IMG/VR virus record: IMGVR_UViG_3300010397_000098
Location: 1 to 20,740 of that record
From: a virus
Length of the DNA: 20,740 nt
Direction: 5' to 3' (one strand)
Notes under the pieces: generated by a model
Told to the model about the DNA's origin: nothing
Databases searched by the model: none
What the model saw: the letters and a program-made list of their open reading frames with translations, nothing else
Shown: piece after piece, positions 3,095-7,865 of the stretch
How the letters are laid out: each line of letters starts with the position of its first letter
Position numbering within the stretch: position 1 is the stretch's first letter
Program-made: the position numbers and the translations under genes

Positions 3095-3645
3095 GCTCGA
3101 TAGCCCTCCGGTGCCCAGTGCTGCGGATGACCAACCAATATCCAATCTTCAAGCGATGCAACGGAATGATAGGGCGGCGGGATGAACCACACCCGGCGCG
3201 TTGCATTCCACAGCACGTCGTAGCCGGCCTTCTGCTTCGCCGCCATCGCGCGCTGGTGAGCTTCCCAACCGACCAGCCACCCGACGATGGTAGCCTTCTT
3301 CGCCGGCAGATCGATCCAGACGAGGACGTAGGGCAGGCGCATCTTGTCGATCGGGCGATAGGCGAGGTCGCGACCTGTCCTGATGTCGCGCGCCCGCGCC
3401 TCGAATATCCTGCAATCGATCTCCCCGATGCCGTTCTCGGATGTGTTGAACGGCTGGCCGAAACACTGCGACGCTTTCAGTTCGCCCAGACAACCAATGA
3501 GATCGTGGGCCTGCTGCACGTCAGGTGACATGCGAGCGGTCGCACCGTAGGGGATGTGTCCCTGCCGCGTAGAGAACTCCCCCTTCGCAATCGCCACGTT
3601 GGTCGCCTCTGCCAAGTCCGATGCCGTGATCGGCATCTCCTTCAT
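3091..3645 (-). CDS. conserved phage protein, possible PD-(D/E)XK-like fold, 184 aa
   Basis: This is a soluble 184-residue protein in the early operon, between the loader-like gene (TGATG overlap) and the 207-residue gene (ATGA overlap). The segment around residues 51-125 has GCLGELKAS, then GEIDCRIFEARARDIRTGRD, then RPIDKMRLPYVLVWIDL and ATIVGWLVGWEA. A Glu-containing helix, an Asp strand, a Glu strand and then hydrophobic strands is the order seen in restriction-nuclease-like folds. Several phage proteins with an 'RP.D....YVLV......IVGW..G.EA' core look alike. I cannot confirm catalysis: the expected E-x-K is E83-x-R here. It could be an inactive or unrelated beta protein. A second ATG nine bases into the gene is possible. 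Confidence 0.68.
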   Translation of the reverse strand: MKEMPITASDLAEATNVAIAKGEFSTRQGHIPYGATARMSPDVQQAHDLIGCLGELKASQCFGQPFNTSENGIGEIDCRIFEARARDIRTGRDLAYRPIDKMRLPYVLVWIDLPAKKATIVGWLVGWEAHQRAMAAKQKAGYDVLWNATRRVWFIPPPYHSVASLEDWILVGHPQHWAPEGYRA

Positions 3646-4136
3646 CAGGTCGTCAGCTTGGACTTGTAATCCGCCATCACACGCTCGACCACCGCACGCC
3701 GGTATTCGAGCGGCTCGCGCTGATCGCGTTCGAACTGTTCGCGCTCCTCGATCTGTGCGCGCGACCGGGCGTTATAGTCATTGGCGAACGTCGCGCGCCG
3801 GATATGCTCATCGATGAACTCGACCACCTCGGCGATCGACGGCGGGAACTTGCACGTTCGCTGGATGCCGGTGACCGGCGAGGTTACCGCGCGGATGACA
3901 GCATCGTCGTAGCGTTCCAGCACCATCGCCAACTGCACGGCGTAGGTGTCGGGATCAGCAAAATCATCTCTTCGGTACGAGCTTAAGACTTGCTGCGCGC
4001 ATTTCCTGATCCAATTGGAGCGGTCGAGGGCCGCTGCTGCCGGGGACGTAGTCTTCGCTGGCACCCGCTTGCCGGAGCCTTTCCCCGAGCCGGTCGAATG
4101 CATCCAGTACCGATCCGTGTCGTCGTCCTTGTCCAT
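3645..4136 (-). CDS. probable replication accessory / helicase-loader-like protein, 163 aa
   Basis: The ATG at 4136 has a strong AAGGAGG site, but lies 173 bp inside the preceding replication gene in another frame. The first 35 residues are polar and low in complexity. From about residue 38 (RSNWIRKCAQQVLSSY) the protein is helical, with a region (YDDAVIRAVTSPVTGIQR, then KFPPSIAEVVEFIDEH) that resembles the 'fPPs..E' segment of phage helicase-loader families such as G39P. The C-terminus is a charged helix (RSRAQIEEREQFERDQREP). Standing directly after the O-like gene it occupies the place of lambda P, so a role in loading the host or phage helicase at the origin is inferred. Sequence alone does not prove it. 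Confidence 0.65.
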   Translation of the reverse strand: MDKDDDTDRYWMHSTGSGKGSGKRVPAKTTSPAAAALDRSNWIRKCAQQVLSSYRRDDFADPDTYAVQLAMVLERYDDAVIRAVTSPVTGIQRTCKFPPSIAEVVEFIDEHIRRATFANDYNARSRAQIEEREQFERDQREPLEYRRAVVERVMADYKSKLTT

Positions 4137-4617
4137 TCTGCCCTCCTTTGTTGCGCGCGTTGTACGGTGATTTCTGGAAATTGCGATAGGCGGCATCCCA
4201 GTCGATGTACTGGTAGCCCTTCGCCCTGGCGTGATCGCGGAACTCGTCGGCCTCGGTGGCGTCGCGCTGCTCACCCTTCGGTTCCCAATCAGGCGGCAGC
4301 GGTCGCCTCGCGCGCGCGGCAGTAGAAAGAGGTCTATCAACTAAGGAAGAAAGTGAAGAAGAAGGAAGAGAAGTAAGTATAAGAGCGGTGTCACGCTTGG
4401 TTTGCTGACGCGGTGTTTGATCCGCCACGGTTTTTTTCCGCCTGTCAGCAATGTCATCACTGTCAGCAGTGACATGCTGACGCGAGCGTTGGTTTTGTTT
4501 GTTAATTCGATTTTGCTCGCGGCGCGCTGCACGCCGTTCAGCTTGTTCTATTTCCACCACACGAAGGATGAGCGCCTCGAGTATTCCGGCTGCGCGCAGC
4601 GTTTCGATGGTGATCAT
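3964..4617 (-). CDS. lambda O-like / DnaT-like phage replication initiation protein, 217 aa
   Basis: The C-terminal part (about residues 104-155) has LPPDWEPKGE followed by EFRDHARAKGYQYIDWDAAYR and NFQKSP, the 'dW.p ... akG ... dWdaawrNw' pattern shared by DnaT-like and other phage replication proteins that bind DNA at the fork. The N-terminal half (about 20-50) is a charged helix rich in Arg and Gln. Residues about 45-99 are encoded by the repeat cluster and AT-rich tract that look like a replication origin, as in lambda gene O. The end, DYVPGSSGPRPLQLDQEM, also looks authentic. The ATG at 4617 follows AGGAGGG, which can fold into a small hairpin. No winged-helix domain is evident at the N-terminus, so origin recognition is uncertain. 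Confidence 0.8.
   Translation of the reverse strand: MITIETLRAAGILEALILRVVEIEQAERRAARREQNRINKQNQRSRQHVTADSDDIADRRKKTVADQTPRQQTKRDTALILTSLPSSSLSSLVDRPLSTAARARRPLPPDWEPKGEQRDATEADEFRDHARAKGYQYIDWDAAYRNFQKSPYNARNKGGQNGQGRRHGSVLDAFDRLGERLRQAGASEDYVPGSSGPRPLQLDQEMRAASLKLVPKR
4321..4512. other. candidate lambdoid replication origin inside the O-like gene
   Basis: The repeats share TGCTGAC. TGCTGACGCG is found at 4403-4412 and 4475-4484 (plus strand). CTGTCAGCA is found at 4442-4450 and 4460-4468, exactly 18 bp apart. A hairpin CACTG-TCAG-CAGTG spans 4458-4471. Next to them lies a purine-rich AT tract (about 4321-4384, roughly one-third G+C), and a T7 run (4431-4437) and a T-rich stretch (4488-4517) flank the cluster. 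Lambda's origin has the same plan: iterons plus an AT-rich, strand-biased tract inside the initiator gene. Confidence 0.6.
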
Positions 4618-4673: not shown

Positions 4674-6374
4674 TCACGAACGAGGATTGTCCCCGCTGTC
4701 ATCAGGATGGAGCGATGCATCCAGGGCGTCGAGGTCGCGCAGCATCGCCGCTCCCTGCGGATCGCGGTAGCCGCCGAAGCCCCGCTTCATCGCGCTCTTG
4801 AGCAACCCGCCCAACTCCTTCTCGCCCATCCTCTTGTCTTTCGGATCGCACCAGAACTCATCCGACATCCCCACGTTGAACTCCGACAGCATCATGTGAT
4901 CCAGTCCAGGCACCGTGACTTCGACATCGTAGCCAGCCCAGGTGAACTTCCGCTCGCCCCGGAAGTGCATCTTCACCTCGGTGCCGTCGCTGCGAACGTG
5001 CGGGCGCACAATGTGGAACACTCGCTTGCGCAGACCACCCTCAGTGAGTTGGTAGTCGCGGTCCTGAAAGAAGTACGCTATGCGCCTGATATCCACGCCG
5101 AAGGTCGCGGTCATGTCGCCCTTCGACACCGCAACACGCACCATCGACAGCCCAGCGTTCTCCTGCTCGCGCACCGCCAAGCAGAACAAATGCGCCATAT
5201 AAAATTCTGTCTCGACGCCGTGATCGTCCGCCCAGCTCTTGAAGGCGTTGGGGTAGTGCCAGTAGCGTTGCGGAATTTCGAAGGCATTCCAGCGCCGCTT
5301 CTTGCTGCGCCTCTTCGGGACAACCTTGATGTACTCGGTCTTGAGCGAGCGCAGCACGCGCATGCGCTCACCATCCCTGCTGATGTAGACCGCGAACTCG
5401 CACGGCACGCCCCACTTGTAGTGCCGATCCCATGCGCGATCCCACCATAGCGTCAGCTTGTAAACATCACCGGGATCGCCGATCGGCTGCACGTCGGCCG
5501 GCGGTCGCTTGTACTTGTGGAAATACAAAAACCTCGGCACCCAAATGTCGTGTATCTTTTTGCCGTCCACCACGAAGCCCATCTGCTCATGCTTCTCGGT
5601 CAGCGAGTGCGCGCCGAAAGCGATGCAGCCAAACGAAGGGCGCGTCTGCTTGAACCACGTCGGCAGATAGAGGTGCTTGCGTACATCCTCGATCTCTTCC
5701 GGTGTCCACTTCGATGGGATTGCGGGATCATAATTGTGGGTGCCGCTGGTGATGCGCGGCACGATGATCGCACCCAGTTGCCGATAGAGATGGTACGCAC
5801 CACTATCGTGATGCTTCATGCGCTCAAGGTAGACCCAGTAGCGATCGAGTTGGTCGAGGATGCTGTCGCGGAAATTGAACTCGCCCCACATCTCTGACTG
5901 CTTGATCAGTACGTCCTCATCAACGTCGTTTATCCTGTCCACGATGAGTGGATCGTTGTCGATGTTGACGGCCAACGGCTCATCAGCAACGACAGCGATC
6001 GGTGTCGATCCGGCGCGCGGGGCGCGCTCCTGCTTGACCGGCTTCGGCCCCTTCGGCTCCACCCAGACATCCTGGCGCAGCCGCGCCTTCTCGTACCGGC
6101 GCTGATCGGAAGCCGTGGCGCGACGCTCCTTCCGGGTCAGCTTCGCTTCCGGCGTCAGCTCTGTCGCAATCGTCGCGGGGGGATGAGACGACTTCTGCCC
6201 CGCAACGACGGGACTTTCTGGAATTGGTGTCACGATTTCCGGTCTAATCGTGACGGGTATTTCCGGGGGCGGCTGGATCGGGATGATCAGAGGGTTGTCG
6301 CCCCGGCGAAGCAGTCGTCGCACTCGCTTGAACGCAGCTGCGGCTAGCACCCGCAGATTGTCCAGCACCCGCAT
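4674..6374 (-). CDS. large uncharacterised early phage protein, 566 aa
   Basis: The ATG at 6374 follows GAGGAGGG and lies 11 bases after the VRR-NUC gene; an in-frame ATG at 6404 lacks this site. Residues 1-25 are basic (FKRVRRLLRRG) and about 25-130 are proline-, threonine- and charge-rich and probably disordered. From about 150 the protein is folded, rich in Trp, Tyr and His. Segments include FNFRDSILDQLDRYWVYLER, VPRFLYFHKYKRPP, KLTLWWDRAWDRHYKWGVP and a C-terminal beta-like block, RVFHIVRPHV, then KMHFRGERKFTWAGYDVEVT. I see no Walker, polymerase, primase or helicase motif and no membrane segment. It lies between a nuclease and the replication gene, so a DNA-metabolism or host-takeover role is possible. 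Function not recognised. Confidence 0.8.
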   Translation of the reverse strand: MRVLDNLRVLAAAAFKRVRRLLRRGDNPLIIPIQPPPEIPVTIRPEIVTPIPESPVVAGQKSSHPPATIATELTPEAKLTRKERRATASDQRRYEKARLRQDVWVEPKGPKPVKQERAPRAGSTPIAVVADEPLAVNIDNDPLIVDRINDVDEDVLIKQSEMWGEFNFRDSILDQLDRYWVYLERMKHHDSGAYHLYRQLGAIIVPRITSGTHNYDPAIPSKWTPEEIEDVRKHLYLPTWFKQTRPSFGCIAFGAHSLTEKHEQMGFVVDGKKIHDIWVPRFLYFHKYKRPPADVQPIGDPGDVYKLTLWWDRAWDRHYKWGVPCEFAVYISRDGERMRVLRSLKTEYIKVVPKRRSKKRRWNAFEIPQRYWHYPNAFKSWADDHGVETEFYMAHLFCLAVREQENAGLSMVRVAVSKGDMTATFGVDIRRIAYFFQDRDYQLTEGGLRKRVFHIVRPHVRSDGTEVKMHFRGERKFTWAGYDVEVTVPGLDHMMLSEFNVGMSDEFWCDPKDKRMGEKELGGLLKSAMKRGFGGYRDPQGAAMLRDLDALDASLHPDDSGDNPRS

Positions 6375-6385
6375 GTTGCCCTCCT

Positions 6386-6754
6386 CTATCGAATAGCGCC
6401 CCAAGCCTCTAGGACGGCCAGGGCCGCGTCCAGGCCGTAGGCCGTCGCAACCGTCGCCCCCGACGCCCGCAGCTGCTCCTGGCGCTCGCGCTGGGCCGGG
6501 GAGAGCCTTCCAATCTCGGTCTTCAATTCCAGTTCGTAGTAGCGACCATCCGGGCCGACAGCATTGATATCGCCGACGCCGGCAGTCATGCCCTGCGCCT
6601 TCAACTCACCGCCCATCCGCAGCGACCGCTTGGCCGCATTGGGCGTCGACCAGAACCGCCACCCGGCGACCTTGCGGTAGGCAATGTGCTCGAATACTGC
6701 GCGCTGGATCGCGGCCTCGGGTTGCTGCCGGCGCTTGCGGATAAGCCGCCTCAC
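6386..6754 (-). CDS. VRR-NUC domain nuclease (PD-(D/E)XK superfamily)
   Basis: This is a small single-domain nuclease of the VRR-NUC type, a family linked to phage recombination and structure-specific cleavage. The signature is visible: an N-terminal helix (EAAIQRAVFEHIAYRK), WRFWSTPNAAKRS, then GMTAGVGDINAVGPDGRYYE followed by LELKTEIGRLSPAQRERQEQ. GD is the catalytic Asp and the E-x-K lies in ELKTE. It ends with ATAYGLDAALAVLEAWG, as usual for the family. I prefer the GTG at 6754, which overlaps the previous stop as GTGA; an in-frame ATG at 6772 (overlap 22 bp) is the alternative and adds six residues. It is the second gene of the leftward early operon, next to replication functions. Confidence 0.85.
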   Translation of the reverse strand: MRRLIRKRRQQPEAAIQRAVFEHIAYRKVAGWRFWSTPNAAKRSLRMGGELKAQGMTAGVGDINAVGPDGRYYELELKTEIGRLSPAQRERQEQLRASGATVATAYGLDAALAVLEAWGAIR

Positions 6755-7002
6755 GGCTCGGTGACACCCCATAATTCCGGCAGCGCCTTGTAACCCTTCT
6801 CCTCCAGAGCGGCCTTCATCACCGGATAGGTCTTGGACGGGAACCGCCCGGTGTCATGTTGCCAATTGTGGAGATGGTTGGTCTTGCGTCCGGTGAGCTT
6901 CGCCACCTTACCGGGGCCGCCGAGGGCGTTGATCACCGCCTCCATTGTTTTGCAGATACGACTTACCGCCTCTTCGCGGTTGCGATGACGAGCAGCTGGC
7001 AT
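6751..7002 (-). CDS. Cro-like helix-turn-helix regulator, 83 aa
   Basis: This is the first gene of the leftward early operon. Residues about 19-78 (MEAVINALGGPGKVAKLTGR, then LHNWQHDTGRFPSKTYPVMK and ALEEKGYKALPELWGV) follow the Cro / YdaS-like pattern: LGG, a short helix-turn-helix that begins with KVAKLTG, a 'W' in the recognition helix, then 'FP...Y' and a helix. It should bind DNA as a dimer. The operator-like dyad at 7011-7022 lies only nine bases upstream of its start, between the two divergent promoters, so autoregulation and repression of the rightward operon are likely. ATG at 7002 is chosen because of the promoter and leader spacing; an internal ATG at residue 20 would leave the HTH intact. 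Confidence 0.8.
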   Translation of the reverse strand: MPAARHRNREEAVSRICKTMEAVINALGGPGKVAKLTGRKTNHLHNWQHDTGRFPSKTYPVMKAALEEKGYKALPELWGVTEP

Positions 7003-7005
7003 GGG

Positions 7006-7033
7006 TTGACACCTGTTCAGGTTTCCTTACGCT
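7006..7033 (+). promoter_or_regulatory. rightward early promoter
   Basis: A consensus -35 box TTGACA (7006-7011) is followed 16 bases later by TACGCT (7028-7033), a weak -10. The -35 is perfect, the -10 matches three of six, and it lies about 40 bases upstream of the exonuclease start. The operator dyad sits inside it. Confidence 0.5.
7008..7025. promoter_or_regulatory. operator dyad in the divergent early control region
   Basis: ACCTG-TT-CAGGT (7011-7022) is a perfect five-base dyad. With flanks it extends to eight-base half-sites matching at seven positions (GACACCTG / CAGGTTTC). It overlaps the rightward -35 box and the leader of the Cro-like gene, the expected place for a Cro or repressor site. 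Confidence 0.55.
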
Positions 7034-7040
7034 GTTCTCC

Positions 7041-7069
7041 CATATATCGTTTTTGAACCCCGGAGACAA
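7041..7069 (-). promoter_or_regulatory. leftward early promoter for the Cro-like gene and replication operon
   Basis: On the minus strand TTGTCT (7069-7064) and TATATG (7046-7041) are separated by exactly 17 bases, each matching four of six consensus positions. The transcript would start near 7034 and run through the operator dyad before the ATG at 7002. Confidence 0.5.
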
Positions 7070-7070
7070 C

Positions 7071-7865
7071 ATGGCCCTGAATGCAGACCAGCTGGCGCAG
7101 CGCGCCGGCAAGATCGGAGCATCCGACATCGGCATCATCGTCAGCGGCGATGTGATCAAGATCGACAAGCTCTGGCGCGAGAAGATCGGCGACCAAGAAC
7201 CCGACGATCTCAGCCGCAAGTGGGCAGTCTATCGCGGTACGCACACCGAGCAGATGCACCTGAACTGGATCGAGGAGGTAGAGCGTCAATCCATCACTCG
7301 CCGAGGCGATAGTGTCACCCACTATCGCTACGAGTGGGCCTGCTGCACGCTCGATGGCTGGATCGATGATCTACAGTGCCCGATCGAGGTGAAGTGGACG
7401 AACGGCAACGAGCCGGTCGATCCGGTCATCATCGAGAGATACACGCCGCAGTGCCAGTGGCAGATGGAGATAACCGGCGCGGATCAGTGTGTGCTGTCGG
7501 TCGTCATGGGGGCCGATGAACCCATCCTGAATATCATTAAGCGCGATGCCGACTACGCTGGCCTACTGTTGGAACGCGGCTGGAATTTCATCCAGCATGT
7601 TCGCAATCGCACGCCGCCGGTCAATCTACCGGAGGTGCCGGTGCCGGTCGACGCGACCAAGATCATCGACATGACCGGCAACAATGAATGGGCGAACCAA
7701 GCCGGCATCTGGCTCGATCTTCGCGACAGCGCAGCCGCGTATGACGACGCGGCGAAGATACTCAAATCACTGGTGCCACCCGACGCGAAGAAATGCTTCG
7801 GCCACGGCACCGTGATCACCCGCAGCAAGCTCGGTTATCTATCACTGAGGGAATTGAGAGAATGA
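7071..7865 (+). CDS. YqaJ-family (lambda exonuclease-like) viral recombinase nuclease, 264 aa
   Basis: This is probably a 5'-3' exonuclease that resects double-stranded ends for single-strand annealing recombination with the protein encoded two genes downstream. Family features: GKIGASDIGIIVSGD near the N-terminus (residues 13-27), YRGTHTEQMHLNWIEE with Glu60, then LDGWIDDLQCPIEVKW with Asp95, Glu106 and Lys108 as the PD-(D/E)XK site, and the helix PQCQWQMEITGADQCVL with the conserved Gln131. The length is close to the family norm. ATG at 7071 is preceded by GGAG (7062-7065); longer in-frame extension to 6945 would run through the divergent control region and is rejected. The stop overlaps the next ATG (ATGA). 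Confidence 0.9.
   Translation: MALNADQLAQRAGKIGASDIGIIVSGDVIKIDKLWREKIGDQEPDDLSRKWAVYRGTHTEQMHLNWIEEVERQSITRRGDSVTHYRYEWACCTLDGWIDDLQCPIEVKWTNGNEPVDPVIIERYTPQCQWQMEITGADQCVLSVVMGADEPILNIIKRDADYAGLLLERGWNFIQHVRNRTPPVNLPEVPVPVDATKIIDMTGNNEWANQAGIWLDLRDSAAAYDDAAKILKSLVPPDAKKCFGHGTVITRSKLGYLSLRELRE

Follow-up and report, generated by a model that had tools for sequence, protein, structure and literature searches.

The initiator gene and its neighbourhood

The window, by which we mean the whole stretch of DNA that was analysed (an IMG/VR virus record of 20,740 bp), contains an integrase gene (748-1899) as well as endolysin, tail, DNA-ejection and head-closure genes, and this set of markers identifies the record as a fragment of a temperate tailed phage. 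The genomic context of the initiator gene includes the integrase, a VRR nuclease and a candidate helicase loader, and the region displays the following features:

6751-7002, minus strand: small HTH protein
6386-6772, minus strand: VRR nuclease
4674-6374, minus strand: 566-aa ORF between the VRR nuclease and initiator genes
3964-4617, minus strand: initiator gene (217 aa), with N-terminal helices, a disordered linker that holds the putative origin, and a C-terminal helical domain
4480-4521, minus strand: basic segment REQNRINKQNQRSR (residues 33-46), proposed iteron-reading helix, with locally A+T-rich codons
4475-4481, plus strand: half-site TGCTGAC within TGCTGACGCG, inverted with respect to the gene, outermost arm of a conserved GTCAGCA-N6-TGCTGAC dyad
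4462-4468, minus strand: half-site TGCTGAC, unit 1 of the tandem 9-mers
4453-4459, minus strand: degenerate half-site TGATGAC, unit 2 of the tandem 9-mers
4444-4450, minus strand: half-site TGCTGAC, unit 3 of the tandem 9-mers
4403-4409, plus strand: half-site TGCTGAC within TGCTGACGCG, inverted with respect to the gene
4343-4385, plus strand: homopurine A+T-rich tract, presumed unwinding region, pyrimidine on the coding strand, where it encodes LILTSLPSSSLSSL
3645-4136, minus strand: next gene, coding for a 163-aa helical protein, candidate helicase loader ("P-like"), kept in the relatives L002, L003, L027 and L036

A RecE/YqaJ-type exonuclease gene is also present at 6945-7865 on the plus strand, opposite to the replication genes. 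The 566-aa ORF was considered as an alternative initiator and dropped, as it has no match in Pfam, PHROGs, or phage and plasmid records and is missing from the loci of initiator relatives.

The initiator protein of the window matches no Pfam or PHROG family and displays no winged-helix domain, the N-terminal domain PF09681 included; a PDB fold search with this protein gave no match either. Its AlphaFold model, built with 16 aligned relatives, predicts a helix at residues 4-9 and a single helix from 14 to 63 (pLDDT ∼95 over residues 10-40), after which come a linker of low confidence that coincides with the origin and a small C-terminal part made of helices. In the numbering used below for the basic segment REQNRINKQNQRSR, N36 is position 0, N39 is +3 and R44 is +8, with N36 and R44 belonging to the invariant columns of the family alignment. 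Judged from its sequence and predicted structure, this initiator is not a relative of lambda O.

The initial annotation also mentioned that a P-like gene follows. A conserved helical gene is indeed found next to the initiator; its product matches weakly a family of unknown function (phrog_9804, E 7.5e-4), and a PDB fold search with it returned nothing. In the relative L006, a DnaB-type helicase occupies the same place (phrog_239, E 2.6e-29). A loader role of the 163-aa protein is thus suggested by its gene position and by the helicase gene of this relative.

Repeats and homopurine tract in the linker of the initiator family

The motif TGCTGACGCG occurs at positions 4403 and 4475 (+) and the motif CTGTCAGCA at 4442 and 4460, with a spacing of exactly 18 bp. 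The four TGCTGAC copies initially reported are therein recovered in both orientations, two on the plus strand and two on the minus strand, with a degenerate fifth one in addition. Since this degenerate TGATGAC lies between the two CTGTCAGCA copies, the array consists of three tandem 9-mers. The repeats are located ∼130-215 nt into the reading frame of the initiator, in its linker, and the purine-rich tract and a T7 run (4431-4437) are likewise included in the minus-strand ORF 3964-4617, as had been proposed.

Taken alone, the repeat cluster of the window is mildly unusual and its support is suggestive. TGCTGAC is present 10 times in the window versus 3.7 ± 1.7 in shuffled sequences (0/100 reach 10). 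When any 7-mer with four copies in 97 bp is accepted, such clusters appear in 12/200 first-order and 8/200 third-order simulated windows; because a free choice of motif gives 4-6% of simulated windows, the cluster alone does not carry the origin claim. Resampling synonymous codons with the protein kept fixed yields 0.20 expected TGCTGAC copies against the four observed (0/2000 reach 4). This codon null and the relatives described below both speak against protein-level conservation as the sole cause of the repeats, an explanation that the initial annotation had left to be excluded. Sequence comparison shows a constraint acting on the repeats at the DNA level, and it is their conservation in relatives that makes the case. 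An Rfam search of the origin region gave no match, and the GC-skew check that had been proposed was not informative, with no clear switch at the repeat site along the 20.7-kb fragment.

Altogether, ∼75 related phage genes were compared. For the family of the window initiator, protein and DNA-pattern searches resulted in 19 distinct members including the window itself, and scans of genome contigs for further relatives led to no confirmed case. The short N-terminus is common to most members, L162 and L164 being the exceptions, and the basic segment R(E/A)QNR(x6)R is present in all 19, where it is followed in nearly every case by clustered repeats and then by a homopurine/homopyrimidine tract. 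The main repeat is of the CTGAC type (TGCTGAC) in 11 members including the window and CGTGAC in 7, both types being found in L009. TGCTGAC is enriched in most relatives of the first class (A) and CGTGAC in most of the second (B). The initial annotation had asked if related phages with the same protein lack the repeats: relatives do carry them, and the one close relative devoid of TGCTGAC, L003, whose protein is 56% identical to that of the window, displays CGTGAC-type repeats in its place. At the protein level, the TGCTGAC motif of the window family gives different peptides according to its frame and orientation (RQH, RQQ, CQH, ADS, ADR), and the GTGAC-class motif encodes peptides of the SRD, VT and SH types. 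After the tract, C-terminal domains are abruptly swapped as in lambdoid mosaics, and the initiators of L029 and L160 match replication-initiation PHROGs (4.2e-23 and 3.5e-14, respectively).

Two members illustrate particular arrangements of segment and repeats. In L009 (4097-4240), a hybrid initiator displays two successive basic segments, INKQNQRSRQ and RQRNHRARN in this order, with a distinct repeat class after each; in L005 (4110-4210), the unit formed by INKQNQRSRQH and the repeat is duplicated in tandem, segment and iterons together. Outside the window family, an initiator-like gene of L057 contains tandem GTCAGCA near 1109-1133 in another frame (SAMSAMSA). L029 carries six tandem TGCTGACNN units. 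As a lone search pattern, tandem TGCTGACNN was abandoned: it has 114 matches in viral contigs, mostly in Ala-Asp, Gly-Ala-Asp and similar low-complexity genes, and the motif alone is therefore not diagnostic.

The purine-rich, low-G+C tract reported near the repeats corresponds to positions 4343-4385, with 65% A+T for 43% in the whole initiator gene, and it is longer than under synonymous resampling (P 0.027). Among relatives, the coding strand carries purines in eight cases (L006, L027, L031, L033, L036, L037, L158 and L164; KKERKE-like peptides) and pyrimidines in ten including the window (SSSLSS- or PPP-like peptides), L034 ending before the tract. Such preservation on either strand would be hard to explain by protein function. 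The tracts of L002 and L003 are short and unexceptional. Inverted repeats of 10-17 bp flank the tract in L006 (4220-4269, 14 bp perfect), L027, L033, L036 and L164; the flanked tract would form a hairpin loop, in a position that resembles that of the lambda palindrome. This hairpin was not retained as a defining part of the region, being strong in these five members and absent in the window.

Basic segment and repeat class in winged-helix initiators

The usual view is that phage in-gene origins are read by the winged-helix domain. The Firmicutes replisome organizers of phiRgPS_6 and TMW 1.1386 combine, in this order, a winged helix (wHTH), the same basic segment as in the window family, GTGAC/GTCAC repeats and an A+T-rich purine tract, and a search with four initiators of this type yielded 80 loci. 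Among them, segment RKQxQR is found with GTGAC repeats, RVAxxR with GTTAC, LAQARWR with TCTACTGTAGA, YMxxYR with CTAAC and RDRxYxxxRR with CTGAC. Given the encoded protein, the repeats are several-fold above expectation, and significantly so in nearly all members of the larger classes. The effect is weaker for CTGAC (n = 4), where one member out of four reaches significance. Initiators devoid of the segment carry other in-gene repeats, e.g. mEp234 (TGGACAA x6), PP9W2 (CCCCGGC x5), Galaxy and Tuc2009 (CAACCAA).

Comparison of these proteins shows, at the sequence level, that repeat class tracks the type of basic segment and neither the winged helix nor the C-terminal domain. For 55 deduplicated wHTH initiators, identity of the basic segment predicts pairs of the same repeat class with an AUC of 0.90, versus 0.53 for the wHTH; for the 48 with long enough C-termini, values are 0.87 for the basic segment, 0.55 for the wHTH and 0.53 for the C-terminal domain. 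Repeats differ in 32 of the 53 pairs with a wHTH identity of at least 85%, and none of 5000 permutations of repeat labels inside wHTH clusters reaches the observed link. The pair L194/L203 is the most explicit: their wHTHs are identical over 99/99 residues despite synonymous differences and their C-termini are 95% identical, while the basic segments are REQNRIRQKKWY versus RESKRLAQARWR and the repeats CTAAC versus TCTAC. Segment positions 7, 4 and 0 are the most informative on repeat class, Arg is nearly constant at 1 and 8, and these positions together define one face of a helix. When origins with a TGAC core are pooled over three backgrounds, GTGAC is found in 29/29 cases with Arg at +3, and CTGAC in 17/18 cases with another residue there (Fisher 7e-12, kinship uncorrected). 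The exception is L009, where a second, Arg-type copy of the segment precedes the GTGAC repeats. The window protein, with Asn39 at +3 and CTGAC repeats, conforms to this pattern. These comparisons suggest that the choice of repeat sequence is made by the short basic helix encoded before the repeats, in place of the usual winged-helix domain.

A crude rule was coded for 12 further annotated phages before their repeats were inspected. It agreed with A500, Javan278, Javan290 and Javan242 (Val +4, GTTAC) and with S-CoN_Ph22 (Lys +4, GTGAC), and also with VEsP-1 and phi6228 once the segment was placed by hand. Phage phi11 (Gln +4) was mispredicted and phiS13 was mixed; 055SW001 has no repeats in its initiator linker, and no basic segment was found in Funu1 and phiMH1. 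The simple rule by which Arg at +3 with Lys or Gln at +4 gives GTGAC was rejected on its failure for phi11; Lys4 for GTGAC and Val4 for GTTAC suits the test set better, the correction for phi11 being post hoc. In Staphylococcus phage S-CoN_Ph22 (L270, 1080-1120), the frame is broken right after the segment with four GTCAC/GTGAC repeats left intact, the DnaD-like portion having a gene annotation of its own.

Interpretation and comparison with known systems

Taken together, these observations make it very likely that the repeats represent the replication origin of a phage, and that this origin sits within the coding sequence of the protein that starts replication from it. We further consider it probable, on the basis of sequence, structural model and analogy, that the region is the origin of a temperate phage located in the initiator linker, with half-sites read by a basic helix in a protein devoid of winged helix. 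By analogy with lambda and SPP1, the following scenario can be proposed. The basic half of the long N-terminal helix (REQNRINKQNQRSR) would read TGCTGAC half-sites in a bZIP fashion by contacts of the helix in the DNA groove, and the inverted and tandem half-sites would gather several copies of the initiator. The region would then act as an origin: the adjoining A+T-rich homopurine tract would be melted by the assembled initiators, and the C-terminal domain together with the product of the next gene would bring in and load the replicative helicase.

An in-gene origin could also exist with its iterons read by the C-terminal domain or by another phage or host protein, the basic segment being a mere hitch-hiker. 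Segment and repeats are only tens of bases apart and may be exchanged as a unit irrespective of the actual reader, mosaic exchange being common at this point. We nevertheless regard this alternative as unlikely. C-terminal identity does not predict the repeat class, and L194 and L203 have both flanking domains in common with different repeats. In addition, conservation of the segment is at the protein level: its nucleotides are identical at only 24-26 of 36 positions in cases where nearly all amino acids match. Moreover, hitch-hiking does not predict variation at positions 0, 4 and 7 combined with nearly fixed Arg at 1 and 8.

Much less probable is a role of the repeats as operators, bound by the initiator or a repressor to regulate transcription of their own gene, with no contribution to replication. 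Operators, too, typically contain dyads and half-sites in tandem, and binding alone would presumably look alike in sequence, but the repeats lie well inside the frame and are followed by the homopurine A+T-rich tract, the C-terminal domains are swapped like those of replication initiators, and the neighbourhood is a replication module. Least probable of all, to the point of being hardly credible, is that the repeats merely result from a protein linker of low complexity, rich in Ala-Asp/Ser. Unrelated genes of the Ala-Asp or collagen-like kind can indeed contain TGCTGAC tandems, and most of the 114 viral-contig stretches mentioned above are unrelated; against this reading stand the synonymous-codon null, the different peptides encoded by the motif and the purine tract on either strand.

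Reading by the basic helix may apply beyond the window. We lean slightly towards the view that a large group of initiators, with or without winged helix, picks its origin through a portable bZIP-like basic helix located beside the iterons, with a residue-to-base code, and that the helix travels with its iterons from one initiator to another, otherwise near-identical one, the two forming a cassette for origin specificity. In the code so proposed, Arg at +3 would specify GTGAC and Asn, Ala or Tyr CTGAC; in the wHTH set, Lys at +4 would specify GTGAC and Val GTTAC. In-gene iteron origins are already known, while we found in the open literature no prior description of a swappable basic-helix reader, of a residue-base correspondence or of a helix-only initiator family. 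The data indicate that, in a broad phage set, a helix of ∼12 residues would read the iterons and be swapped with them. If true, this would provide a testable recognition code from which origins and compatibility groups of unstudied phages could be predicted from sequence, and would explain how replication specificity changes while the rest of the initiator stays. It would also represent a prokaryotic counterpart of the bZIP reading of TGAC half-sites.

In bZIP proteins, the contact positions are 0, 3, 4, 7 and 8. The phage segment resembles eukaryotic bZIPs of the Maf and CREB/AP-1 types by its basic helix, where Asn occupies position 0 and Arg position +8, and by the TGAC half-site, TGCTGAC being the half-site of Maf. 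It differs from them by the absence of a C-terminal leucine zipper: a low-confidence linker follows, and the helix extends N-terminally. No significant homology was detected between bZIPs and the segment, and the likeness, if real, is probably convergent. Profile matches remain sub-threshold (PF00170, E 0.0057, and bZIP_Maf, 0.053, in single members; Pap1 1gd2, E 0.15), with a best PF00170 score of 17.2 bits for a cut-off of 27.6; the window protein has no PF00170 match, and a profile of all segments found no bZIP in PDB. With these scores and the missing zipper, the comparison is a lead to a reading helix that may be bZIP-like.

Among known in-gene origins, that of lambda has both iterons and an A+T tract halfway along gene O (PMC7466680), and oriL of SPP1 lies inside gene 38 with origin repeats beside an A+T-rich region (PMC6316719). 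The record of Tuc2009 rep bears the note "contains origin of replication", with CAACCAA repeats in the linker. As in lambda O/P, the window has clustered iterons within the gene of the initiator beside an A+T-rich purine-biased tract, a linker separating what would be DNA-binding and partner-binding parts, and a candidate loader gene in next position. Of the lambda-style origin in an O-like gene that was initially annotated, iterons and purine tract inside the initiator gene are supported, whereas O-like descent is not. Indeed, the repeats are 7-9-mer half-sites with a TGAC core in both orientations, unlike the direct 18-19-bp iterons with internal dyad of lambda, the initiator has no winged helix, neither protein is detectably similar to O or P, and the purine strand varies among relatives. 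The presence of origin repeats by an A+T-rich region in the initiator gene is also reminiscent of SPP1 gp38/oriL and of lactococcal Tuc2009 and TP901-1 rep, although Tuc2009 and TP901-1 have neither the REQNR basic segment nor the TGAC repeats. Finally, the PF09681 organizers (phiRgPS_6, TMW 1.1386, A500 and phi11) resemble the window by a segment placed directly before in-gene GTGAC/GTTAC repeats and a purine-rich A+T tract, but they carry an N-terminal winged-helix domain of ∼100 residues that the window protein dispenses with.
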